This document shows, in pieces, positions 22,849 to 64,000 of a DNA stretch of 64,000 nucleotides (position 1 is its first letter; each line of letters begins with the position of its first letter). Under the pieces are notes generated by a model. It had not been told where the DNA came from, searched no databases, and saw only the letters and a program-made list of their open reading frames with translations. This DNA comes from a bacterium. GTDB taxonomy: Bacteria > Electryoneota > RPQS01. The position numbers were made by a program, and so were the translations under genes. The stretch is from assembly GCA_036504735.1 (NCBI GenBank), contig DASXUQ010000018.1, positions 62,001 to 126,000 on the forward strand, written 5' to 3'.

Positions 22849-24105
22849 TTAGAAGGAACTCTGGCGTTCGCGGATGGCTACCATCACCTGAGCTTCATCG
22901 TAGGCGGTTTCACCGTGGAGGGATGCATCGAGACCGCGCTCTTCTTCATCCGCCGTGGTGCGTACGCGGGTAAAGATGTTGATGACCTTGAGCATGACAT
23001 AGGTGAAGCCGAAGGCGTAGATGGACGACGCCACCACGGTAAAGACCTGCATGGTAAAGAAACCGGAATTGCCCATCAGCAACCCATCCGCACCCGCGGC
23101 ATTCACACTCTTGTCGGCAAGAATGCCCAACAGAATAATACCGAAGGCGCCGCCGACACCGTGCACGCCCCAGACATCGAGGGCATCGTCCCATTTCAGC
23201 CGGTTCTTCAGATTCACCGCCATGTAGCAGACGACACCGGAAAGAATGCCAATGATCACGGCGCTGGTAGGCGTCACATAACCTGCACAGGGAGTGATGG
23301 TCGCAAGTCCCGCGACCGCGCCCGTCAGCAGACCAAGGAACTTGGGTTTCTTTTCGAAGATCCACGCCAGCAGCAGCCAAGTTGGGCCGGCAAAGGAAGC
23401 GGCAATGTCCGTGTTCAGGAACGCCAGACCGGTGACTGCATCTACGCGCAGCTCGCTGCCCGCATTGAAGCCGTACCAGCCAAACCACAGAAGTCCGGTG
23501 CCGAGCGCAACCAGCGGAATGCTGTGCGGAATGGAGTCCCCTGACTTGCGCCGCCCGACATAAAGTACAGACGCCAGCGCCGCCATACCGGCAATGTTAT
23601 GCACCACGATGCCGCCGGCAAAGTCCAATACGCCCAGCTTGGCGAGCAGGCCGTTGCCCCACACCATGTGCACGAAGGGGAAGTACACGAAGGTCAACCA
23701 GGCCACGAGGAAGGCGAGGTAAGCTCCGAAGCGAACGCGATTGGCAAACGCGCCGGTGATGAGGGCGGGTGTGATAATGGCGAACATCATCTGGTAGGCC
23801 ATGAACACAAATTCGGGAATGTTGCCACTGCCGAAGGGGCACATCGTGGTCAGGGTTACGCCATTCAAGAAGACCTTGTCGAGGTTGCCGATGATGCCAC
23901 CTTCACCGCCGGAGAAACAGAGAGAATAGCCATAAGCCCACCAGATGATGGTGGTGACACCCATCGAAACAAAACTCTGGATCATGATGGTCAGCACATT
24001 CTTGCGTCCCACCAAGCCGCCATAGAAAAAGGCCAAGCCCGGCGTCATGAGCATGACGAGGCTTGAAGCCACCAGCATAAACGCAGTATTTCCAGTATCG
24101 AACAT
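22849..24105 (-). CDS. amt: Ammonium transporter Amt (first copy)
   Basis: 418 residues, 11 predicted transmembrane helices. Amt signatures: FYGGLVGRKNVL, the pore-lining His pair in DFAGGIVVHNIAG and DVWGVHGVGG, and the FFYGGLVG start. It lacks a clear cleavable signal peptide. Good RBS (CAGGAGA, 5 bases before ATG). It is about 900 bases from the second amt, on the same strand. No glnK/glnB lies beside either copy. It moves ammonium/ammonia across the inner membrane. Confidence 0.96.
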   Translation of the reverse strand: MFDTGNTAFMLVASSLVMLMTPGLAFFYGGLVGRKNVLTIMIQSFVSMGVTTIIWWAYGYSLCFSGGEGGIIGNLDKVFLNGVTLTTMCPFGSGNIPEFVFMAYQMMFAIITPALITGAFANRVRFGAYLAFLVAWLTFVYFPFVHMVWGNGLLAKLGVLDFAGGIVVHNIAGMAALASVLYVGRRKSGDSIPHSIPLVALGTGLLWFGWYGFNAGSELRVDAVTGLAFLNTDIAASFAGPTWLLLAWIFEKKPKFLGLLTGAVAGLATITPCAGYVTPTSAVIIGILSGVVCYMAVNLKNRLKWDDALDVWGVHGVGGAFGIILLGILADKSVNAAGADGLLMGNSGFFTMQVFTVVASSIYAFGFTYVMLKVINIFTRVRTTADEEERGLDASLHGETAYDEAQVMVAIRERQSSF

Positions 24106-25034: not shown

Positions 25035-26288
25035 TTACGCGGCTTCGATGCGGCGCTTGGGCTTGAATTCGGTTTCCTCCGGTTCATAAGCAAACTCGCC
25101 GTGGATCGAGGCGTCGAGGGTGGCTTCTTCCTCCGCCGTGGTGCGGACGCGGGTGACGGTTTGGATGCCGCGCAGAATGAACCAGGAGATACCGAAGGCG
25201 CAGACCGACGAGATCACAATGGCCAAGGCTTGCGTGCCGAGGAAGGCGGGGTTGCCCTTCAACAGGCCATCGGCTCCGGCAGGGTTGACGGCTTTGTCGG
25301 CCAGCACACCGAGCAGCAGAATGCCGAGGAAGCCGCCGACGCCGTGGACGCCCCAGACATCGAGCGCATCATCCCACTTCATACGGTTCTTCAGATTTAC
25401 CGCTCCGTAGCAGACAACGCCGGCAAGCAGGCCAACGATGACGGCACTGGTGGGAGTGACGTAGCCGCAGCAGGGAGTAATGACGACCAATCCGGCGAGA
25501 CCGCCGGTCAGGAAGCCGAGAAACTTGGGTTTCTTTTCGAAGATCCAGGCCATCAGCATCCACGCTACGGCGGCAAAGGCACCGGAGAGCTGGGTGTTGA
25601 GGAAGATAAGGAAGGTCACGCCGTCGGCTGCAAGTTCACCGCCGGCATTGAAGCCGAACCAGCCGAACCAGAGCAGGCCCATACCGATGGCCATCAGCGG
25701 CAGGCTGTGAGGAACTTCATTGGTGAACTTCCGCTTGCCGATAAAGAAGACCGCCGCCAGAGCAGCCATGCCGGCGATGTTGTGGACGACAATACCGCCG
25801 CCAAAATCCAGCACGCCCATTTTGGCGAGCAGGCCATTGCCCCATACCATGTGGGCGAACGGGAAATAGACGAACGTCAGCCAAGCGACGAGAAAAGTCA
25901 GATAGGCTCCGAAGCGCATGCGATTGGAAAAGGCTCCGGTGATGAGGGCCGGGGTAATGATGGCGGTCATCATCTGAAAGGCGATGAAGGCAAACTCGGG
26001 AATCCGTCCTTCGCCGTAAGGAGAAAGGGAGTTCAGTGTGACGCCTTGCAGAAAGCACTTGTCCAGATTGCCGATAATGCTGCCCTCGCCGCCACTGAAG
26101 CAGAGCGAGTAGCCATATGCCCACCAGATGACCGCCGTCACGCCCATCGAGACGAAACTTTGCATCATGATCGTCAACACATTTTTGCGGCCTACCAGTC
26201 CACCGTAGAAGAACGCGAGGCCCGGCGTCATCAGCAGCACGAGGCTGCTCGCCATCACCATAAACGCAGTGTTCCCAGTGTCAAACAT
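25035..26288 (-). CDS. amt: Ammonium transporter Amt (second copy)
   Basis: 417 residues, same architecture as the first copy, with long identical stretches around FYGGLVGRKNVL, GNGLLAKMGVLDFGGG and DDALDVWGVHGVGG. The twin pore His residues are conserved. RBS AGGAGG is 5 bases before ATG. The C-terminal tail differs (ends KRRIEAA). The pair therefore comes from an old duplication. The gene lies downstream of a NarX/NarL-like two-component operon, separated by a 120-bp repeat element. Confidence 0.96.
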   Translation of the reverse strand: MFDTGNTAFMVMASSLVLLMTPGLAFFYGGLVGRKNVLTIMMQSFVSMGVTAVIWWAYGYSLCFSGGEGSIIGNLDKCFLQGVTLNSLSPYGEGRIPEFAFIAFQMMTAIITPALITGAFSNRMRFGAYLTFLVAWLTFVYFPFAHMVWGNGLLAKMGVLDFGGGIVVHNIAGMAALAAVFFIGKRKFTNEVPHSLPLMAIGMGLLWFGWFGFNAGGELAADGVTFLIFLNTQLSGAFAAVAWMLMAWIFEKKPKFLGFLTGGLAGLVVITPCCGYVTPTSAVIVGLLAGVVCYGAVNLKNRMKWDDALDVWGVHGVGGFLGILLLGVLADKAVNPAGADGLLKGNPAFLGTQALAIVISSVCAFGISWFILRGIQTVTRVRTTAEEEATLDASIHGEFAYEPEETEFKPKRRIEAA

Positions 26289-26369
26289 GGTTTCCTCCTA
26301 AATGAAATATATAAGAATAACGTGCCTTGAGGGATTATCAAAGCAGTGAAGGTTAGAAAAAAGCGAAGC

Positions 26370-26489
26370 ACCCCCTTCTGATTCCCCCTTTTTCAAAGGG
26401 GGAAGGGCAGTCGGGCTTTCCCCCGTTTACGGGGGATCAAGGGGGCTCGGGCCTCCCCCCTTAGAATAAGGGGGGATCAAGGGGGGGTC
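26370..26489. repeat. Triple-hairpin dispersed repeat, copy A
   Basis: 120 bp holding three perfect or near-perfect hairpins: CCCCCTTTTTCAAAGGGGG, CCCCCGTTTACGGGGG and CCCCCCTT..AAGGGGGG, with outer ends that are also complementary. A second copy with few differences is at 57259-57379. It resembles a MITE-like or intergenic palindromic element with no coding capacity. Confidence 0.85.
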
Positions 26490-26517: not shown

Positions 26518-27171
26518 CTATTCCAGCGGTGTCAGGCCTTCACGGATGGCGTATTTGGTGAGTTCGGCAACGGTGTGCATGTTCAGTTTGTCCATGATGT
26601 GCTGGCGGTGGGTTTCCACAGTCTTGACGCTGACGTTGAGCTTGTCGGCGATCTCACGGGTGGATTTACCCTCAGCCAGCAGTTGCAGAACTTCACGTTC
26701 GCGGGCACTCAGCAGACGGAAAGGCGTCGGCTGGTCGGATTCGGTCAGACGGATGAAATCGGCGATGACCTGTTCGTTGATCAGCACCGAGAGATAGAAC
26801 TGATTGCGCATGACCTTCTGGATGGCGCGCATAACTTCTTCCGGCGCGGCATCCTTGAGCAGATAACCCTTGGCTCCGGCGCGCAGGGCCTCTTGAATGT
26901 AGCGGCGGTCGGAGTGCATGGAAAGGATAATCACGCGTACGGCGGGATCTTCATCCACGATGCGGCGCGTGGCTTCGATGCCGTTGAGTTCCGGCATGGA
27001 AATGTCCATCAGCACGATGTCCGGCTTGAGGTCACGAGCCAGCGTGGCCGCTTCGAAGCCTGTGGCGGCCTCCCCCACGACCTGTACCAGAGGCTGGCGG
27101 GACAAAAGCTGACGCAGCCCGAGGCGGAACAGCTTATGGTCATCGGCGAGCAGCAGTTTGACGTCGGGCAT
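26518..27171 (-). CDS. NarL/FixJ-family response regulator
   Basis: 217 residues. Receiver domain (1-120) with acidic pocket ADDHK, phosphoacceptor Asp56 in LMDISMP, the conserved Ser of ILSMHS and Lys of YLLKD. C-terminal LuxR-type helix-turn-helix (about 150-210, LSAREREVLQLLAEGKSTREIA, in part). It starts 2 bases after the stop of its partner kinase, with RBS AAGGAT. Targets are unknown; proximity to amt suggests, but does not show, a nitrogen link. Confidence 0.94.
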   Translation of the reverse strand: MPDVKLLLADDHKLFRLGLRQLLSRQPLVQVVGEAATGFEAATLARDLKPDIVLMDISMPELNGIEATRRIVDEDPAVRVIILSMHSDRRYIQEALRAGAKGYLLKDAAPEEVMRAIQKVMRNQFYLSVLINEQVIADFIRLTESDQPTPFRLLSAREREVLQLLAEGKSTREIADKLNVSVKTVETHRQHIMDKLNMHTVAELTKYAIREGLTPLE

Positions 27172-27173
27172 AT

Positions 27174-28364
27174 CTATCCTTCGAGGCGGACGGAAATCCG
27201 CGCGGTTGTTCCATTGCCGATGGCCGAATGCACCACAAGATCGCCGCCGAAAGATTTCAGCCGTTCCCGAATGCTGAACAGCCCGAAGCCGCGATGGGGA
27301 TCGCCGGTGTTTTCCACCTTGGCAAAATCGAAGCCCTTGCCGTTGTCGGCGACTTCGATCCAGAGCTGTTTGAATTCACATTTCATGGTGATGGTGGCCT
27401 GCGAAGTGTGAGCATACTTCACTACGTTGGTCAGCAGTTCCTGCACGCACTTGAAGAGCATGACGCGAATGGCTTCGGCAAGCTGGCGGGGCTCATCCTG
27501 CACCTTAACTTTGATCTTCAGCTTGTGGCGCGTTTCATATTGCTCGGCAAGCCATTCAAGGGCGGCGGACAGGCCCAGCTCATAGAGAATCGGTGTGCTG
27601 ATTTCGAAGGTGAGCTGCCGCGTGTGATGGATCGCTCCTTCGAGCAATCCGATGATCTCTTCGAGGTTGCGCTCGAAGCCGCAGAAGACGGCGTCACCGC
27701 GAAACTGCACTATCCGCAGCTTGATAAAGGCGAATTCCTGAATGATGTGGTCATGCAGGTCCACGGCAATTTCGCGGCGCTCGCGGGCTTCGGCTAAAGT
27801 AAGTTCGGTGGTGAGCTGGCGCAGGCGGTTCTGATAGTCTTCGATCTGCAGCCGCGCTGCGCGGTGCTCATTGACCTCCCGCGCCAGTTTGGCGTTGGTC
27901 GTCCGCAGTTCTTCGGTACGCGCAGCGACAAGCTGTTCGAGGTTGTCCTGCGCGGCCTGGATGGCGCGGTCTGCCAGCAGACGGCGGAAGTAGGAACTGA
28001 GCATGTCGGCCAGCGACTCAATCAGCTCGCGCTCTTCAGCCAGGAACGGTCCTTCCGTTTCGGGCGGACGCTCTTCCAGATACGCGACTTCAATCAGGCC
28101 TTCATCCGCGGTTTTGGCGGTGAAGCGCGCGGTTTGCATCCACGGAGTCTCACGAAAATCCGGCGTGGCTTCGGAGATCTCCTGAAAGCGGATGCGGGCG
28201 ACGGTAATCTCCGGATATTGCCATGCTGCGGGGAGCAGACCGACAATTTCCCGCACTACATCCGCGCTGGGGCGAGTTTCTTCCTGAAGGACGCGCGCGG
28301 TGCGATGCAGAGCAGACAGCTCCTTGACGCGTTCCTGCAGCTTATGGAGTGTAGGGTTCTGCAT
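27174..28364 (-). CDS. Soluble NarX-type (HisKA_3) sensor histidine kinase
   Basis: 396 residues with no transmembrane helix. An N-terminal GAF-like sensing region (about 20-130), a coiled coil (about 130-190), a HisKA_3 dimerisation domain with phosphoacceptor His204 in EIAVDLHDHIIQ, and a HATPase domain (N-box ELLTNVVKYAH, G1 VADNGKGFD, HRGFGLFSIRERL). This subclass pairs with NarL/FixJ regulators, and its gene is directly upstream of one. It senses a cytoplasmic cue. Confidence 0.92.
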   Translation of the reverse strand: MQNPTLHKLQERVKELSALHRTARVLQEETRPSADVVREIVGLLPAAWQYPEITVARIRFQEISEATPDFRETPWMQTARFTAKTADEGLIEVAYLEERPPETEGPFLAEERELIESLADMLSSYFRRLLADRAIQAAQDNLEQLVAARTEELRTTNAKLAREVNEHRAARLQIEDYQNRLRQLTTELTLAEARERREIAVDLHDHIIQEFAFIKLRIVQFRGDAVFCGFERNLEEIIGLLEGAIHHTRQLTFEISTPILYELGLSAALEWLAEQYETRHKLKIKVKVQDEPRQLAEAIRVMLFKCVQELLTNVVKYAHTSQATITMKCEFKQLWIEVADNGKGFDFAKVENTGDPHRGFGLFSIRERLKSFGGDLVVHSAIGNGTTARISVRLEG

Positions 28365-54614: not shown

Positions 54615-54797
54615 TGAGGTGGCGGTCTCCGTGCCGCGACACGAGAGACTCATGTTCCGACGGTCTCCGTGCACCACAGGAAATCTGTGTTCCGGGGCAG
54701 TTTGCACCGCGACGGATCGTCTTAATTCCCGGCGGCATGGAAGCCGCTGGCTAATCGGCAATCCTCTTTTTTCAGAGTGGCGGGCTGGAACCCGCCG
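54615..54797. repeat. REP-like repeat block left of RAYT 2
   Basis: Contains one dimer of the 33/36-bp units, then a module with GGCGGC-ATGGAA-GCCGCT and GGCGGG-CTGGAA-CCCGCC hairpins (54779-54796). The last 130 or so bases match 55697-55829 at about 95% by eye. Confidence 0.85.
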
Positions 54798-55305
54798 CAC
54801 CAGACGTGCCGTCATGTGTGTCAGCCGAACCGTCTAAGGCGATTTTCCAGTAAGGGGTCACGATTCGGAAGGATTCGTTGTAGTATTCCGCCGCGCTCGA
54901 CCAAGGATACGTGTGCGGACTCTCGGCAAGACCGACCCTGACCGGGTTATCGTGAACATACACAAGTTTTTGTTGAAGAAACCGATCGTGCAGCACGATC
55001 TCAGACCAGCACCCTTCCTGCCAGAAGGTCCCGATGCCGATTCGGTGCGTCGAATAACTCTTGACCTGTCCCACCCACCGCGAAATCGTCAGCGGTGATC
55101 TCGGATAGACCAACACATGCAAGTGATCCGGCATGACAACATAGGCGATCAAGGGAGCCTGGCCACGCTGGGCATAAAAGGCCATCGTTTCCACAACGGC
55201 AAGAGCAACTGCCGAATTCGTGAACACTGGTTTACGGTGCGCAGTGGACACGGTAACGAAGAACAACCGGTTTGCCTCGAGACGGTCAGCAGGCACACGG
55301 TCCAT
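54772..55305 (-). CDS. REP-associated tyrosine transposase (RAYT) 2
   Basis: 177 residues. HUH motif HLH (His61, His63) in MPDHLHVLVYP, catalytic Tyr116 in KLVYVHDNPVRVG. RBS GGGGAAG upstream. Related to RAYT 1. Its last 15 or so residues (DGTSGAAGSSPPL in part) are encoded by the REP-like block, which supplies the stop codon, so the normal C-terminus has been changed or extended. Likely active on the adjacent hairpins; activity not proven. Confidence 0.93.
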   Translation of the reverse strand: MDRVPADRLEANRLFFVTVSTAHRKPVFTNSAVALAVVETMAFYAQRGQAPLIAYVVMPDHLHVLVYPRSPLTISRWVGQVKSYSTHRIGIGTFWQEGCWSEIVLHDRFLQQKLVYVHDNPVRVGLAESPHTYPWSSAAEYYNESFRIVTPYWKIALDGSADTHDGTSGAAGSSPPL

Positions 55306-55331
55306 GAACAGCTTCCCCTTTCATGTCCGGT

Positions 55332-55829
55332 GGCGGGTTCCATCCCGCCTTACCAAAATGGCATACCCGATTAGCCGGCGGCCTCCGTGCCGCCGCAGAA
55401 GATTCTTGTTCAGGCGGTCTCCGTGCCGCCACGGGACATCTGTTCCAACGGCCTCTGTGCCGACACCAGAGACTCATGTTCCGACGGCCTCGGTGCACCA
55501 CGGGGAATCTGTTCCAACGGCCTCCGCGCCGCGACACGAGAGACTCATGTTCCGACGGTCTCTGTGCACCACGGGGAATCTGTTCCAACGGCCTCTGTGC
55601 CGACACCAGAGACTCATGTTCCGACGGTCTCCGTGCACCACAGGAAATCTGTTCCAACGGCCACTGTGCCGACACCAGAGACTCATGTTCCAACGGCCTC
55701 TGTGCACCACGGGAAATCTGTGCTCCGGGGCAGTTTGCGCCGCAACGGATCGTCTTAATTCCCGGCGGCATGGAAGCCGCCGGCTAATCGGCAATCCTCT
55801 TTTTTCAGAGTGGCGGGCTGGAACCCGCC
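55332..55829. repeat. Expanded array of alternating 33/36-bp REP-like units
   Basis: Begins with GGCGGG-TTCCAT-CCCGCC (55332-55349), then at least ten consecutive units from 55377 to 55719. From 55442 they alternate: 36 bp type (GTTCCAACGG then CTCTGTGCCGACACCAG, ending ACTCAT) and 33 bp type (GTTCCGACGG then TCTCYGTGCACCACGGG, ending AATCT), giving four dimers of 69, 71, 69 and 69 bp. It ends with GGCGGC-ATGGAA-GCCGCC and GGCGGG-CTGGAA-CCCGCC hairpins (last at 55812-55829). Confidence 0.9.
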
Positions 55830-55836
55830 GCCTCAA

Positions 55837-57195
55837 TCAAATCCCGTCCGCCGCCTCTTCAAATCCTTTCCTACCCATCAAACCATACGTCAGGACTTTG
55901 CCTAATTCCACGCCGGGTTGGTCGAAGGGGTTGATGCGGTAGAGGGAGCCGGCAAGGGCAGTGGTGACTTCGAGCAGCATGAAGAACTCGCCGACGCTGC
56001 GGGCATCGAGGCGCGGGAAGCGGATGGTAAGGGAAGGCCGCTGCTGACGGGCAAGGGCCTCACGCGTGGCGGCGAATTCGGCGGCCATCAGCTTGTTCAT
56101 CGACTGCCCGCCCAGATAGTTCAGCGAGGAGACTTCGGGATAGATGGCGGGCAACGGCAGCGCGGTGCGGAACTTCTCCACTTCGAGGAACAGGAACACC
56201 TTGTCGTGCGGGCCTTCGATGTAAAGCTGCACCTGCGAGTGCTGATCGGTCGTGCCCAGCGCCTTGATTGGCGTCGGTCCCACATTGACTGTCTTGCCGT
56301 CGATATCCTTGGCCTTGCCCAGCGATTCGGCCCAGATCTGGCGGAACCAGTCGGCCAGCAGATAGGCGGAGTTGGCGTAGGACATCATCACGTGCATCGG
56401 CTTTTTGTGCGCGGTATCGAACAGATAGAGCAGCGCGGCCATCTGCGCGGCGGGATTTTCGGCAAGGTTATCATTCAGGCAGCGGTCAGCCATTTCCGCC
56501 GCGCCATCCAGCATTTGCAACACGTCGAAGCCCAGGCAGAAGGCGGGAAACAGACCAACGGGACTCAGCACGGAGAACCGCCCACCCACCGCCGTCGGCA
56601 GATCCAGCGTCGGCAATCCTTCTTCCTGACAAAGCTTGCGCAGATCACCCGAGCGCGGATCGGTAGTGCAGACCACGTGTTCTTTCCACTGCGGACCGAG
56701 AGCTTTTTTGAGGCGGTCGAAAATCAGCAGCGTGGCCGCGGCGGTTTCGGCGGTGGCGCCGCTTTTGGAGATAATGTTGTACACCGTATCGCGCGGCTCG
56801 CAGAAATCCAGCAGGCTCCAGGCCTGGTCCGGATCCACATTGTCCAGCACAAAGAACCGGCTGCGGCCACCGCGCTCTTCCCATGAGAGCAGATTGTGCA
56901 GCGGGTGGGCCAGCGCATTGAAGATCGCCGCCGGTCCGAGGGCCGAGCCGCCGATTCCGGCCAGCACAAAATTATCGATACCGTGGAAATGCTCCGCCGC
57001 CTGCTGGCTGGAAAGATACGCGCCCATGTCATAAGGCAGATCGAGAAACTCGAGGGTGCCCATGTCATGGTGGCGGTTCAGATCGGCAATCGCCTCGTGC
57101 ATTCGCGGCGCAAGCTGATCCATCTGCTCCGTCGACACGCCGTGCGCGCCCACTCTGGCGCTGTAGGCATTGGTGGTATTCAGAGATAGGGACAT
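55837..57195 (-). CDS. pgi: Glucose-6-phosphate isomerase
   Basis: 452 residues, the size of the shorter bacterial Pgi type. Motifs GIGGSALGPAAIF, ISKSGATAETAA, GGRFSVLSPVGL and a late FDQPGVELGK (the isomerase signature). Interconverts glucose-6-phosphate and fructose-6-phosphate. Its stop is 8 bases from the REP-like array, and a triple-hairpin repeat lies about 60 bases upstream of its start. Confidence 0.95.
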   Translation of the reverse strand: MSLSLNTTNAYSARVGAHGVSTEQMDQLAPRMHEAIADLNRHHDMGTLEFLDLPYDMGAYLSSQQAAEHFHGIDNFVLAGIGGSALGPAAIFNALAHPLHNLLSWEERGGRSRFFVLDNVDPDQAWSLLDFCEPRDTVYNIISKSGATAETAAATLLIFDRLKKALGPQWKEHVVCTTDPRSGDLRKLCQEEGLPTLDLPTAVGGRFSVLSPVGLFPAFCLGFDVLQMLDGAAEMADRCLNDNLAENPAAQMAALLYLFDTAHKKPMHVMMSYANSAYLLADWFRQIWAESLGKAKDIDGKTVNVGPTPIKALGTTDQHSQVQLYIEGPHDKVFLFLEVEKFRTALPLPAIYPEVSSLNYLGGQSMNKLMAAEFAATREALARQQRPSLTIRFPRLDARSVGEFFMLLEVTTALAGSLYRINPFDQPGVELGKVLTYGLMGRKGFEEAADGI

Positions 57196-57258
57196 GATTA
57201 TTTCCGGTTGAAGAAAAGTTTCATGAAGGGTGATGTTGGAAGGTGCTTTGCTTCAAGA

Positions 57259-57379
57259 ACCCCCTTCTGATTCCCCCTTTTTCAAAGGGGGAAGGGCCAT
57301 CGGGTCTCCCCCCGTTTACGGGGGGACTAAGGGGGGGGCAGGTCTCCCCCCTTAGAATAAGGGGGGACCAAGGGGGGTC
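57259..57379. repeat. Triple-hairpin dispersed repeat, copy B
   Basis: 121 bp, same orientation as copy A at 26370 and differing mainly in the linkers between hairpins. It sits between the stop of the acetate transporter gene and the start of pgi, the same context as copy A. Confidence 0.85.
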
Positions 57380-58338: not shown

Positions 58339-58367
58339 TTGACAAACTGGAAAGTTTTTCCTATTTT
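58339..58367 (+). promoter_or_regulatory. Sigma70-type promoter of the RNA/C25 transcript
   Basis: TTGACA, 17 bases, TATTTT. Predicted start near 58374, about 25 bases before the nested RNA stem. Confidence 0.75.
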
Positions 58368-58398
58368 GAAACGAATCTCAGGGAGTCGGCTTTATAGC

Positions 58399-58519
58399 AA
58401 GTTCGCTAAGCTGTTTGTACCGTCAGTAGAAACTCCAATGCTTGTCGCCGGACGCTGCCTTTGGGCAGGGTTCCGGTGGAGTGCTCTCTGACGGCATGCG
58501 TAGCTTAGCGAACTTTTTT
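58399..58519 (+). ncRNA. Nested five-helix structured RNA with terminal U-tract
   Basis: P1: AAGTTCGCTAAGCT (58399-58412) pairs with 58502-58515, 14 bp perfect. P2: CCGTCAG (58420-58426) with CTGACGG (58488-58494). P3: ACTCCA (58432-58437) with TGGAGT (58477-58482). P4: CCGGA (58448-58452) with TCCGG (58472-58476). P5: CTGCC (58455-58459) with GGCAG (58464-58468). P1 is followed by TTTTTT (58514-58519), so the 3' side of P1 can act as an intrinsic terminator. No known class was recognised. Confidence 0.55.
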
Positions 58520-58537: not shown

Positions 58538-61500
58538 ATGGCATTTCCCACCCGTAAGATCCTATTTACATTTCTCTTGCTCCTGCTAATTGGTGGGAGC
58601 ATCTCGGTGCTCAGCGCCCTGCCCTCCGCCCGCAAGACTCCCCCAGCTCCCCCTGCTGCCAAAACCGTCAACGCCGAAAAGTCCACCGCCGCTACCCGCG
58701 CTGCGTTGCAGCTTTTGCGGCAGGAAGACGGCGAATTGACGCTGGAATGGAAATGTCCGGAGATTCAGCTCGAACGTGACCCGGTGACGCACCGGATTGC
58801 CGCCGTCATGATGAACGGCGCGGATCCCTGCCAAAAAACCGGTGTCCCGACCCTGCCGCAATTTACCCAGCTTCTGGACTGTCTGCCCGGCAAAGTCACG
58901 GCACAAGTCGTCGATATGGAGGCCGACACGCGGCTGCTTGGCGAGATGATCGCCACTCCCGAGGACATTATGGTAGATGCGCCTCCGGCTTCGGACAGCA
59001 CGCGCGGCGGACAGGCCCTCGACTCGCCCGCAGAACGACTGTCCTGGAGCGAGCGCGCCTCCCGCACGCCGCTGATTTCCGGCATGTGGCCGCCGCAGGT
59101 GGTCAGTGTACAGGAGGCCGGCGTTTACCGCGGCCACCGGCTGATGTCTCTGAATATTTTTCCCGTACAGGTGGACGCCCAGCGCGGCGTAGCGCACGTG
59201 GTCAAACGCATTAAGGTACGGGTGACCATGCCGCGTAATGCCACGGCCGTCAGCCGCATTCCCGATCAGGCGTCCGAAACCGACATGCTGCGCAAGATGC
59301 TCGGCCAGCTCGCGCCCACAGCACTGGCGACGCGCATGCCTGAAGCCCTTGAAGGACGCGGCGCGTCGGGGCGGAACCGCCTCGATGATTTCGACCCCTT
59401 GCATCCCCGCTGGAAGATCATCGTCAGCCAGCGCGGGATTGTGCGCGTGACCGCCACGGATCTGCGCTTTGCCGGATGTCCCGTCGAACAGATCACCGCG
59501 CGGGAAGTGCATCTCAAGAATCGCGGGCACGAAGTCCCCATCTACTTTTCCGGTGAAGAAGACAACCGGTTCGATGACGGCGATTATTTCGATTTCTACG
59601 GCATCCCCAATCAACAGACCTACCAGTCGTTCTCGCCGTCCTTTTATCAGGACCCGTGGACCAATGAGAATGTCTACTGGCTGTCGTGGGGAGACGGTCA
59701 GCCCGGTTTGCGGCTGGCCAATGAGGATGGAACCTATCATCCCGACTGGTCGCCGCAGCAGGTGCATCAGATCTCCAATGTCCAGACGTCCTTGCACTTC
59801 GAAGCCGACTGGAAGTTCGACCGCCTGCAGGCCAGCACCTCTCAGTTCGCTCAAACGTTGCTGGCAAACGGTCCTTTGGGAATCCACCAGGACCATTGGT
59901 TCTGGGGTACGCCGATTGAAGGCCTGAGTTCACGCAGTTTCCTGGCCTATCTTCCCTTTCCGGCCACGTCGGGCCCCGAGGCTCTGTACAATGTGACCGT
60001 GCGGGCCTGCCTGCAAGGGTATACCTTCTCGGACGCCGAGCCGATGGGCAACCACCGGGCCATTGTGTATGTCAATGGGCGGACGGCTCCCGGACTGCAG
60101 GGCGGTAAGATTACCGAGAGGGATAACTTTCCGGTATGGAAGAACCAGACGCCGATTATTTTGCAGACGCGTCCCACGGATACGGCGGGCGTCGGCATCA
60201 CCGCCGGAACGCTGGAGCAGGGGAATAATGTCATTTCCGTGTCTCTTCCCGGCGATGGTCTGGCGGGCGCAAACGACAAGGTCATGGTCAACTGGTTCGA
60301 GATCGACTATGCCCGCGCGCCCCGTGCCTCTTACGACGGATCCATCTATTTCCCGTTCGATACAACTCGCGGCGACACCTATTCCTTTGAAATCCGCGGC
60401 TTTGCCACCCGCAACATTTCCGTCTGGAAGCTGGACCATGCGCGGCTTACCAATGTGCTGGTGCGGCGTGTCAATCCGGCGGATGAAAGCCCAAGCTGGG
60501 CGGCGCGCTTCCAACTGATCAGCGACGGCGCCTATCAGATGGCGCTGTTCGATGACCGGTATCCGCAACATCCCGCGGCGATTGTGCCCGAGACCTCCAA
60601 CCGTGATCTGCGGACGCTGAACGGCGCGCGCTACCTGATCATTTATCACGACAGTTTCGCCAATGACCCGGCGGCTTCCCCCTGGCTGCAGCGGCTGGAC
60701 AGTCTGCGCCGCGTGACCTTCGACGGCTCGGTGGATACGATTCGAGTCTCACAGATTTATGAGCAGTTCAATGACGGCATCGTCAACCCGGAAGCGATCC
60801 GCAATTTCCTGAAGTACGCCTATGAACACTGGGCGGTGCGTCCCACGCATTGCTGCCTCGTGGGAGACGGCGTGATGGAAAACAAGTACAGCGGCGCGCG
60901 GCAGGGCGATCTGATTTCCAGCCTCTATACTTTGACTACCCAGTACGGAGCCACCGCGGCGGATATGCTGTTCGGCTGCGTCTCCGGTCCTCCGTGGGAC
61001 ATTTTGCCGGACATCGCCGTCGGCCGCATTTCCTGCCGCTCGGCCACGGAACTCGAATCGTATGTCCGAAAGCTGATCGCCTACGAAGATCCGTCCCGCA
61101 CGGCCTACAACTCGCTGTATCACTGCACCATGCTGGCGGTGGCCGACAAGAAAGACGCGCAGTTCGATTTCCCCGGCGGCTACTCGGAACCGACCATTCA
61201 GACGATGCCGGACGAGATCAACGTGTCGCGCGTCTACCTCGACAGTCTGCCCTCCGGACAGGGTCCCAACGTGCTGCGCGACGGCTTCCGCAACGGCGCG
61301 GTGCTGATCAACTATAACGGGCACGGTGGTGGTGGTGTGTGGAGCGGCACCAACTTGATGGATGTGGCCGGCGTACGCCAGCTCAACAACCGCCGCGCCT
61401 ATCCGTTTATTACGAATTTTACCTGTTACGTGGGCGCGTTCGATGCCATCAATCAGGCCGACGTGCTCGGGGAGGCTTTCGAATTCGCCCAGAACAACCG

Positions 61501-64000
61501 GCTGGATCCGGTGGGCGGCATCGGAGTTTACAGTTCCACGGGCGTCGGTTGGGCAAATGCCGGACGCACCATGCAGCAGTATCTGTATGACTTCTGCGCC
61601 ACCGTCCCGGGGCTGACACTCGGCGAAATCGTACAGATAAACAAGACGCGGTTCTGGGGACGGCGAGTTTACAATTGGGCGATGGGCGACTATCTCGCCA
61701 TCGGCGATTCCGAGTATTCGATGATGATGATGATGACGCTGCTGGGCGATCCCGGAGTCAAACTCGCGCTGCCGCAGCAGACGTGGCATGATGTGCATGC
61801 CAACACCGGCCTCGTGCATCTGGGAGATACGTTGCGGGTCAGCGGCACGTTGCCGTGGGACCCTGCCGGGCAACCCACCGACGTCTATCTGCTACCCTAC
61901 AATGGCGCCGGATTGTCCTATTATCTGCAGCATTACCGTCTGCCCAATGGAGAAGACACGGCGATTGTGATTCCGGTCCAGACCTCCCATGTACCCGCCC
62001 TCAATCTTGACCTCGCCTTTCCCCAGCAGGTGACAACGCGCGAGTTTTCCAACCTGCCTGTACCGATTTCCGCGGGATTGCACACCTTGCAGGGCCATGT
62101 GGTGGTGTACGCGGTCAATCAGGGAAGCGCCGGAGTTCAGCCGCAGGACGCCATCGGCACGCTGCCGCTCTTTCTGGCCGACAGCCTGACCGGTTTGCAG
62201 GTCTTTTCGATTCAGTTGCTGCCTCTGCGCAATGTGCAATTGGGGAACATCGAAGGTTTCATCCCCAATGATTCCACATTTCAGGTGCAGGTCAATCTCA
62301 TGAACCCGGGAGGGATTGCCCGGGTCAAGGCGCGCGGTGTTTTCCGTCCGGCGCAGGGCCCGGTGACATTGGATACTCTGGACCTTGTCGAACAGGAGCC
62401 GGGATTGTGGCGCACACCGGACCTTGGACCCTATTCGGTTTACGGCGGCTCGTACCGCATGCAGTTCTTTGTGCAGCCAGCGACCGGGGGCGAATTTGTG
62501 TCCACCGATGATTACAATTTGACGCTGGAAGCCCGCAACGATTATCTGCTCAACAGCAGCGCGGGTGTGGCGCCCAAGCCCGTCGCGGGAAAGGAGCCGG
62601 CCTATTACGTTCCGCTGGGATCGACCAACAGCGCGTTCACGCGCAACGTCGATGACCTTCCGGTGCGAATGACCGCGGTGCATGACTGCACTTACACCGA
62701 CGCGACTCACCACACCGTTCACGTGGTGCTCGATTCGATTGCGACGACCATCCATATCAACAATATTTCGGCGCATGCGGCCTTGTTCGACACGCTGATT
62801 CCGACCTATTTCTGGCCACAGTTTTACCGGATTACCCTCATGGTGGACCCGGATAACATCGTGCCCGAAATCAATGAGTCCAACAATACGTACACCACCA
62901 CGCTGGTCATGCCGAATCTGTTTCCGGCGACCAACGCGCTGGGCACGTACATGCCGCGGACCACGCAAAGCACCGCCTTCCACTATTTCTATAAACCGGG
63001 ACTTGCGGACACCATCTGGTTGAAGGTGATGCCGGGGTCGCTGCCGGTGGATTCCACGACGTTGATTTACACGGCGCCGCGCGCCTTGAGTGCCGGCGAA
63101 CTGGCGCAACTGTCTTACTCCGGTCTGAGCCAGACCGGCTCCGGGTTGCCGGATACCCTGCGTGATTCCGTGTATGTATTCCGCGTGACGCTGGCCGATT
63201 CCAGCGATGCACTGGTCCCCGGAGGCGTGGCGAACGTCTCATTGAACTTCTCTTTTGTGCGCGACTCACTGGAACTGTCCGAACTGGCGTTGTTTGAAAG
63301 GCGGGATGTCGCCACCGCCTGGCGCAAGCTCGACAATCTCTTTTTAGAAGGCGTTCACCGCGACACGACCTTCTCACGCGGTGTGCGAATTATCAGCTTT
63401 GCGGGCAAAGTGTCCGGCACGGCATCAGACCTCGGGAATTTCGCCTTGTTCCGGTATCATGACGAACAGGGGCCGCAGATTCAGATTTCGGTCGACGGCA
63501 TGCACTTTACACCGCATTCGATCCTGCCGCGCCATCCGCAGATCTTTGCTAATCTGACCGACCCTTCCGGCATCGACCGCAGCGCGGGCAAGTTCGGCAT
63601 TATCCTTGACGGCGACACGCTGCCCGATGGCCAGATTGTCTGGTCAGACAGCCTCGTGTCGAATGCGGCCATGAGCGCGCTGATCCGTCCCAATCTCGAC
63701 CCCGGCCATCATGTACTGCGGGTGTTCGCCACCGATAATACGGGCATGGCGGACAGCACGTCGGTGGAGTTCGAGGTCAGCGGCGCGTTCGGCATCGAGT
63801 GGGCGATCAACTATCCGAATCCCTTCCCCAAGACCACCACCATCGCCTACCTGCTCACGGATGTGGCCGACAATTTCGTGGAATGCAAGATCTTTACGGT
63901 GTCGGGCCGCTACATCCGCACGGTGCGGGAAGTAGAACGCGCCGTGGCCAATTACCGGGAGATTACCTGGGATGGCCGTGATGATCGCGGCAATGAGGTT
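58538..64000 (+). CDS. Giant peptidase C25 (gingipain/PorU-like) protein, 3' end outside the window
   Basis: At least 1821 codons open to the window edge. A hydrophobic signal segment (about 8-27, ILFTFLLLLLIGGSISVL), a Pro/Ala-rich linker, an N-terminal beta-rich region, then a caspase-fold C25 domain (about 690-1070) with His929 in NYNGHGGGGVW and nucleophile Cys963 in TNFTCYVGAFD. Next come Ig-like/CARDB-type repeats (VDPDNIVPEINESNNTY) and a FlgD-like end (NYPNPFPKTTTIAYL, IFTVSGRYIRTV, WDGRDDRGNEV) that ends at the window. This order resembles PorU, the T9SS sortase, but the protein is far longer than typical PorU; a gingipain-type secreted protease is the other possibility. ATG at 58538, 19 bases past the U-tract, with a weak GGGG upstream. 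Confidence 0.85.
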   Translation, partial: MAFPTRKILFTFLLLLLIGGSISVLSALPSARKTPPAPPAAKTVNAEKSTAATRAALQLLRQEDGELTLEWKCPEIQLERDPVTHRIAAVMMNGADPCQKTGVPTLPQFTQLLDCLPGKVTAQVVDMEADTRLLGEMIATPEDIMVDAPPASDSTRGGQALDSPAERLSWSERASRTPLISGMWPPQVVSVQEAGVYRGHRLMSLNIFPVQVDAQRGVAHVVKRIKVRVTMPRNATAVSRIPDQASETDMLRKMLGQLAPTALATRMPEALEGRGASGRNRLDDFDPLHPRWKIIVSQRGIVRVTATDLRFAGCPVEQITAREVHLKNRGHEVPIYFSGEEDNRFDDGDYFDFYGIPNQQTYQSFSPSFYQDPWTNENVYWLSWGDGQPGLRLANEDGTYHPDWSPQQVHQISNVQTSLHFEADWKFDRLQASTSQFAQTLLANGPLGIHQDHWFWGTPIEGLSSRSFLAYLPFPATSGPEALYNVTVRACLQGYTFSDAEPMGNHRAIVYVNGRTAPGLQGGKITERDNFPVWKNQTPIILQTRPTDTAGVGITAGTLEQGNNVISVSLPGDGLAGANDKVMVNWFEIDYARAPRASYDGSIYFPFDTTRGDTYSFEIRGFATRNISVWKLDHARLTNVLVRRVNPADESPSWAARFQLISDGAYQMALFDDRYPQHPAAIVPETSNRDLRTLNGARYLIIYHDSFANDPAASPWLQRLDSLRRVTFDGSVDTIRVSQIYEQFNDGIVNPEAIRNFLKYAYEHWAVRPTHCCLVGDGVMENKYSGARQGDLISSLYTLTTQYGATAADMLFGCVSGPPWDILPDIAVGRISCRSATELESYVRKLIAYEDPSRTAYNSLYHCTMLAVADKKDAQFDFPGGYSEPTIQTMPDEINVSRVYLDSLPSGQGPNVLRDGFRNGAVLINYNGHGGGGVWSGTNLMDVAGVRQLNNRRAYPFITNFTCYVGAFDAINQADVLGEAFEFAQNNRLDPVGGIGVYSSTGVGWANAGRTMQQYLYDFCATVPGLTLGEIVQINKTRFWGRRVYNWAMGDYLAIGDSEYSMMMMMTLLGDPGVKLALPQQTWHDVHANTGLVHLGDTLRVSGTLPWDPAGQPTDVYLLPYNGAGLSYYLQHYRLPNGEDTAIVIPVQTSHVPALNLDLAFPQQVTTREFSNLPVPISAGLHTLQGHVVVYAVNQGSAGVQPQDAIGTLPLFLADSLTGLQVFSIQLLPLRNVQLGNIEGFIPNDSTFQVQVNLMNPGGIARVKARGVFRPAQGPVTLDTLDLVEQEPGLWRTPDLGPYSVYGGSYRMQFFVQPATGGEFVSTDDYNLTLEARNDYLLNSSAGVAPKPVAGKEPAYYVPLGSTNSAFTRNVDDLPVRMTAVHDCTYTDATHHTVHVVLDSIATTIHINNISAHAALFDTLIPTYFWPQFYRITLMVDPDNIVPEINESNNTYTTTLVMPNLFPATNALGTYMPRTTQSTAFHYFYKPGLADTIWLKVMPGSLPVDSTTLIYTAPRALSAGELAQLSYSGLSQTGSGLPDTLRDSVYVFRVTLADSSDALVPGGVANVSLNFSFVRDSLELSELALFERRDVATAWRKLDNLFLEGVHRDTTFSRGVRIISFAGKVSGTASDLGNFALFRYHDEQGPQIQISVDGMHFTPHSILPRHPQIFANLTDPSGIDRSAGKFGIILDGDTLPDGQIVWSDSLVSNAAMSALIRPNLDPGHHVLRVFATDNTGMADSTSVEFEVSGAFGIEWAINYPNPFPKTTTIAYLLTDVADNFVECKIFTVSGRYIRTVREVERAVANYREITWDGRDDRGNEV

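Follow-up and report, generated by a model that had tools for sequence, protein, structure and literature searches.

A conserved promoter and long hairpin precede a porU-like sortase gene and probably form a transcription attenuator

The region analyzed here (hereafter, the window) is a stretch of 64,000 nucleotides of contig DASXUQ010000018.1, from a bacterium of the GTDB lineage Electryoneota, RPQS01, whose genome is designated G000. Close to its end, a gene encoding a C25 peptidase domain starts on the + strand (58538..64000) and extends past the window end, its product comprising about 1850 aa. Profile matches assigned this product to Peptidase_C25 (223 bits) and, with 253 bits, to the PorU model NF033707, whose curated cut-off of 420 was not reached, whereas the gene that follows scored 109.5 bits against PorV_fam (cut-off 90). 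The gene is named PorU-like since, in spite of the sub-threshold NF033707 score, both the C25 domain and a PorV-family neighbor are present. C25 peptidase genes are abundant in this group, the 4.2-Mb G000 containing 20 and its relatives in the order 8-15 each. Elsewhere in the window, two neighboring genes reading like ammonium transporters (22849-24105 and 25035-26288, - strand) adjoin a LuxR/NarL-type response regulator and a sensor kinase (26518-28364), and a small transposase-like ORF (54772-55305, - strand), which reads like a REP-associated tyrosine transposase, lies beside an array of short repeats in which several frames are open (about 55290-55840; CSDGLCAPRGICSNG...). A promoter and a long rod-shaped hairpin immediately precede the porU-like gene and are the subject of this study.

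Orthologous leaders were collected by blastn against related genomes, which matched the region before a porU-like gene in the same family and in a sister family, and then by protein search and orientation of the loci. The comparison comprises nine leaders, namely those of G000 (the window itself), G004, G005, G006, G007, G009, G010, G011, and G012, spanning two families (G011 and G012 represent the sister family) and one order. Six of the nine can be matched to the public records RPQS01000024.1 (candidate division KSB1 bacterium), JAHIZR010000256.1, JAPKYT010000076.1, JAUXGA010000007.1, DYHQ01000139.1, and JADLDM010000146.1. The remaining genomes of the order, namely G002, whose gene is cut by a contig end, and G001, G003, and G008, which gave no N-terminal match, were left out. 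The PorU N-termini of the relatives show 38-52% identity to the G000 protein, and the same order of promoter, rod, U tract, and ATG was found in all nine leaders, confirming that the promoter and hairpin before the porU-like gene are real and conserved.

The sigma70-type promoter TTGACA-17-TATTTT, already recognized in an earlier note on this DNA, is indeed present in G000 (58339..58367, + strand) and is kept in all nine leaders. It consists of a -35 hexamer TTGACA at 58339-58344, a spacer of 17 nt, and a -10 hexamer TATTTT at 58362-58367. Identity over the nine leaders reached 1.00 in the -35 hexamer, 0.77 in the spacer, and 0.76 in the -10 hexamer, falling to 36% in the 40 nt before the promoter and to 30% in the 25 nt after it. 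The promoter appears to be dedicated to this gene: a pattern search across the order retrieved the nine porU leaders with 0-1 mismatch (G006 being the one-mismatch case), and sites with 0 mismatches were found only at porU. The spacer (58345-58361) carries the motif TGGAAA-N3/4-TnCC, which is kept in both families; in five genomes, including G000, it forms the perfect inverted repeat GGAAA-N3-TTTCC. That the spacer is conserved on a par with the -10 hexamer suggests that a protein binds there, and this inverted repeat is probably an operator for a regulator of porU, a candidate proposed from sequence conservation.

About 25 nt downstream of the promoter's predicted start, the transcript would enter the hairpin. 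The earlier note described a nested set of five helices closed by a 14-bp perfect stem immediately followed by TTTTTT. The nesting holds, although the "helices" turned out to be stacked segments of one rod: the minimum free energy (MFE) fold of G000 is a single nested hairpin of 46 pairs without any multiloop. The rod, read along the + strand, comprises the 5' arm of the closing helix (AAGTTCGCTAAGCT, 58399..58412), whose core TTCGnTA is invariant in the nine genomes; the 5' side of the inner stacked helices (58416..58453), in which pairing is kept across families and sequence is not; an apical hairpin CTGCC-TTTG-GGCAG (58455..58468, loop TTTG at 58460-58463), with a loop that differs in every genome; the 3' side of the inner helices (58469..58501); and the 3' arm of the closing helix (AGCTTAGCGAACTT, 58502..58515). 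The two arms of the closing helix do pair perfectly over 14 bp, but the first two T of the U tract (58514..58519) lie inside the stem, so that four unpaired U, and not six, follow it.

The 121-nt element folds with -65.0 kcal/mol, compared with a mean of -36.8 for 500 dinucleotide shuffles (z about -8, no shuffle as low), and the 152-nt leader with -69.3 kcal/mol (z -5.4). When 121-nt stretches were scanned along the window, the element was among the three most over-stable for their composition, and two G/C-rich repeat hairpins, at 26369 and 57257, folded even more strongly. The latter (26369-26489 and 57257-57377) are very stable hairpins of short G-run/C-run repeats, that at 26369 being of the CCCCCTTTTTCAAAGGGGGA kind, and are unrelated to the leader. 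Since these two repeats are stronger still, folding strength alone would not prove function, and it is the comparison between genomes that provides the proof.

A single rod of 116-127 nt was predicted in all nine leaders, with 37-49 pairs and z between -3.1 and -9.1 relative to shuffles. Invariant bases lie almost exclusively in the promoter and in the closing helix and its flanks, and no conserved sequence block was found inside the rod across the nine leaders. In the closing helix, which aligns by sequence, 88.9% of the cells are paired (23-46% when the arms are slid against each other), changes on both sides occur at three pairs, and the covariation score is 0.257, compared with at most 0.095 for slid arms. 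Counts of both-side pairs in nine related sequences were not extreme in a shuffle control (104/500), and for this reason more weight is given to an alignment-free test in which the arms of different genomes were exchanged. The same test served for the rod interior because MAFFT aligned only the promoter and closing helix, RNAalifold consequently returning just 10 pairs. Own arms folded with a mean of -55.9 kcal/mol and arms from different genomes with -37.8, a loss of about 18 kcal/mol, and a similar picture emerged for the interior only, after removal of the outer 22 bases of each end (-29.5 and -19.7 kcal/mol, respectively). The strongest exceptions were relatives, such as G007 with G010. 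Furthermore, the + strand folded better than its reverse complement in all nine leaders, with margins of 1.4 to 22 kcal/mol, an asymmetry to be expected of a structure that relies on G-U pairs. Thus, the nine leaders keep the rod with compensating changes, the evidence that the earlier note had proposed to look for, and the coupling of the arms together with the strand asymmetry shows that selection acts on the + strand RNA.

The element is tied to porU. In each of the nine genomes on which it was trained, a covariance model identified a single strong site (E at most 7e-15), which was invariably the one before porU; its other matches were antisense self-matches and weak ones at chance level. 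No paralogous copy was detected in the order by blastn, promoter pattern or covariance model, the element being single-copy in G000, where the weak blastn matches that were inspected proved to be coding sequence. As read from the translations, the divergent gene upstream is pgi in G005, G006, G007, G010, and G011. In G000 it resembles an acetate transporter, in G009 it is another transporter, and in G004 it encodes a GNAT protein; in these last three genomes, the element remains beside porU despite the change of neighbor. The rod was absent from PorU homologs of sister families outside the nine, and no comparable rod was found within about 300 nt upstream of 18 other C25 genes of G000, whose starts are approximate. 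One strongly folding stretch (z -9.5) does lie about 280 nt before a C25 ORF in another locus of this genome (L169, G000:C15:22991-29500), and it forms three hairpins instead of a single rod.

The rod ends like an intrinsic terminator. Within the 8 nt after the stem base, 7/8 are T in eight of the nine leaders and 5/8 in G007, in which the U tract is broken (TTTCTCGT), and T content further towards the ATG is 12-54%. In the sister family (G011 and G012), the 5' arm of the rod begins with CCG and cannot pair with the T's, so the U tract is not kept there for pairing. The conserved stem of the closing helix, with its covariation, stands directly before a U tract, and the leader as a whole runs from a promoter present in nine of nine genomes, with predicted start sites, through the rod to an ATG only 21-31 nt past it, which leaves little room for another promoter before porU. 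On the other hand, a simple scan of two 20-kb blocks of the window found terminator-like sites at about the rate of shuffled sequence, so the scan lends no independent support to intrinsic termination in this organism.

On this evidence, the element is best read as a cis-acting premature intrinsic terminator, that is, an attenuator, of the porU-porV transcription unit, a reading to which we assign a probability of roughly 60%. The hairpin would then probably limit how often porU is read. Termination, read-through, and regulation are inferred in the following scheme. The dedicated promoter, probably governed by the spacer operator, would start the transcript about 25 nt before the rod; folding of the nascent RNA would begin at the inner helices and proceed outward to give a rod of about 45 bp, and its G/C-containing closing helix would zip shut exactly at the U tract, both the shape and the U tract being observed. 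The product of intrinsic termination would be a short RNA (about 145-150 nt), porU being transcribed only by polymerases that read through, so that the rod would set, and perhaps regulate, the supply of the PorU-like sortase. Some features sit less easily with attenuation, among them the broken U tract of G007. The rod is far longer than usual 5'-leader terminators, and indeed the published average of 7.0 bp and -16.5 kcal/mol (PMC2965389) makes its size unusual. In addition, the U-rich stretch, located 20-30 nt before the start codon, could serve ribosome binding instead.

Read-through might be raised by a local 5' hairpin sequestering the 5' arm of the rod, or by a protein recognizing the TTCGnTA closing helix. 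In all nine leaders, the segment before the rod, which in G000 is the predicted 5' segment of the transcript (GGGAGTCGGCTTTATAGC, 58374..58398, + strand, from a predicted start), can pair with the 5' arm of the rod, for instance through AGCGA-UCGCU in G007 and G010 or UAGC-GCUA in G000. When the segment was shuffled, Fisher p values of 0.046 (dinucleotide) and 0.016 (mononucleotide) were obtained, related leaders being treated as independent, and swapping 5' segments between genomes revealed neither a clear loss nor compensation. Because the pairing is barely above chance and the swap shows no coupling, a competing antiterminator hairpin is retained as a weak lead, and the conserved closing helix could equally be a protein site. 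A leader peptide was also considered and rejected, since the short TTG/ATG frames seen by eye in G011, G012, G005, and G000 are not common to the others.

The main rival to attenuation is that the rod is a 5' UTR element of a full-length porU mRNA, setting its stability or translation without termination, for example as an RNase III substrate. With 37-49 pairs broken up by small loops, the leaders do provide the minimum of about 20 bp of duplex that such a substrate calls for; length and pairing are kept (116-127 nt, 37-49 bp) while sequence is not, as would be the case for a reader of duplex length; a rod much longer than a terminator needs, and one member lacking a good U tract, point the same way. 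Nevertheless, this explanation accounts neither for the 7/8 T past the stem base in eight of nine leaders nor for the sequence conservation of the closing helix, and we consider it unlikely. The two ideas could also be combined: a duplex-binding protein or RNase III might recognize a long duplex selected for shape alone and open or trim the terminator, so that the amount of sortase would follow the state of the secretion system. With only the length of the duplex and its closing helix being read, the interior could drift freely, and this would constitute a new type of attenuator, although we regard the proposal as quite unlikely.

The earlier note had alternatively suggested a separate small RNA with its own terminator. 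A stand-alone, trans-acting small RNA gene merely located before porU would fit the dedicated conserved promoter, the terminator-like end, and the strong fold, and the UpsM leader of Rhodobacter sphaeroides illustrates that a terminated leader can act as a small RNA (PMC5089854). However, the element lies directly upstream of porU even where the upstream neighbor changes, little room is left for another porU promoter, nearly all bases are paired, and the loops differ in each genome, so that neither an independent location nor a conserved unpaired seed was found in the nine genomes. This alternative is thus very unlikely, and a terminated RNA of 145-150 nt is, in any case, the expected by-product of attenuation.

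As for the riboswitch-like attenuator that was first envisaged, only its second half has gained support, from the U tract in eight of nine leaders, the scarce room for a promoter, and the constant association with porU. A structured leader with a terminator-like end between promoter and gene could accommodate a ligand-binding riboswitch, possibly with its aptamer inside the terminator, as the HMP-PP (thiS) class proves feasible (PMC6478431). Nonetheless, neither the interior nor the apical loop has conserved nucleotides across the nine leaders, and a search of Rfam identified no family at gathering score in the window, and when E values of up to 10 were admitted, the leader gave only chance matches, to precursors of plant microRNAs and to an HCV element. 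Known riboswitch classes, SRP RNA, and 6S RNA were thus not matched, as the earlier note had stated for the consensus and signatures it considered. The lack of inner conservation and of Rfam matches, together with the permanence beside porU, argues against both an aptamer and a trans-acting small RNA, and a riboswitch is highly improbable. Finally, a chance inverted repeat or the remnant of a mobile repeat, which the dispersed G/C repeats forming the other strong hairpins of the window might bring to mind, is ruled out by the single copy, the orthology in nine genomes, and the compensating changes.

A literature search retrieved no leader RNA or attenuator control of a PorU-type sortase, and in the sources searched this regulatory leader of a porU-like gene is previously undescribed. 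Through such a conserved leader, an entire secretion pathway would be open to control in little-known uncultivated bacteria, each of which has about 8-20 C25 protease genes. Moreover, a regulatory RNA kept by shape, with a nearly free inner sequence, is of the kind that sequence-based RNA discovery tends to miss, and the arm-swap and strand-asymmetry tests recover it without an alignment of the interior.

Several known systems resemble the porU leader in part. The pnp and rnc leaders of Escherichia coli are likewise long imperfect duplexes, controlled by RNase III. They are not known to have a terminator U tract at the end of their hairpins, and the genes under their control encode RNases, in which they differ from the porU rod. 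The rimP-leader, a protein-gated attenuator for which a termination or antitermination protein was proposed, also has a terminator stem whose sequence is conserved, and lacks an evident antiterminator (PMC2965389), although sequence and gene are unrelated and published 5'-leader terminators are, as noted above, short on average. In the HMP-PP (thiS) riboswitch, regulatory element and terminator stem are the same hairpin (PMC6478431), but this one has conserved loop and aptamer nucleotides, whereas the interior and loop of the porU rod, which is about twice as long, are unconserved. The nearest published architecture appears to be that of UpsM, the leader of the dcw cluster in Rhodobacteraceae, where termination yields a 206-nt RNA and the mRNA arises from about 1% of read-through (PMC5089854). 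UpsM has a single promoter and, ahead of the first gene, a long 5' leader that contains an intrinsic terminator; it lacks a second promoter and is conserved in one family, and the porU leader would have a similar layout. UpsM nevertheless comprises four distinct structured regions and has its terminator 84 nt upstream of mraZ (PMC5089854), and belongs to a different gene and a different phylum, whereas the whole porU leader is one rod whose base is the putative terminator, with the ATG 21-31 nt away.
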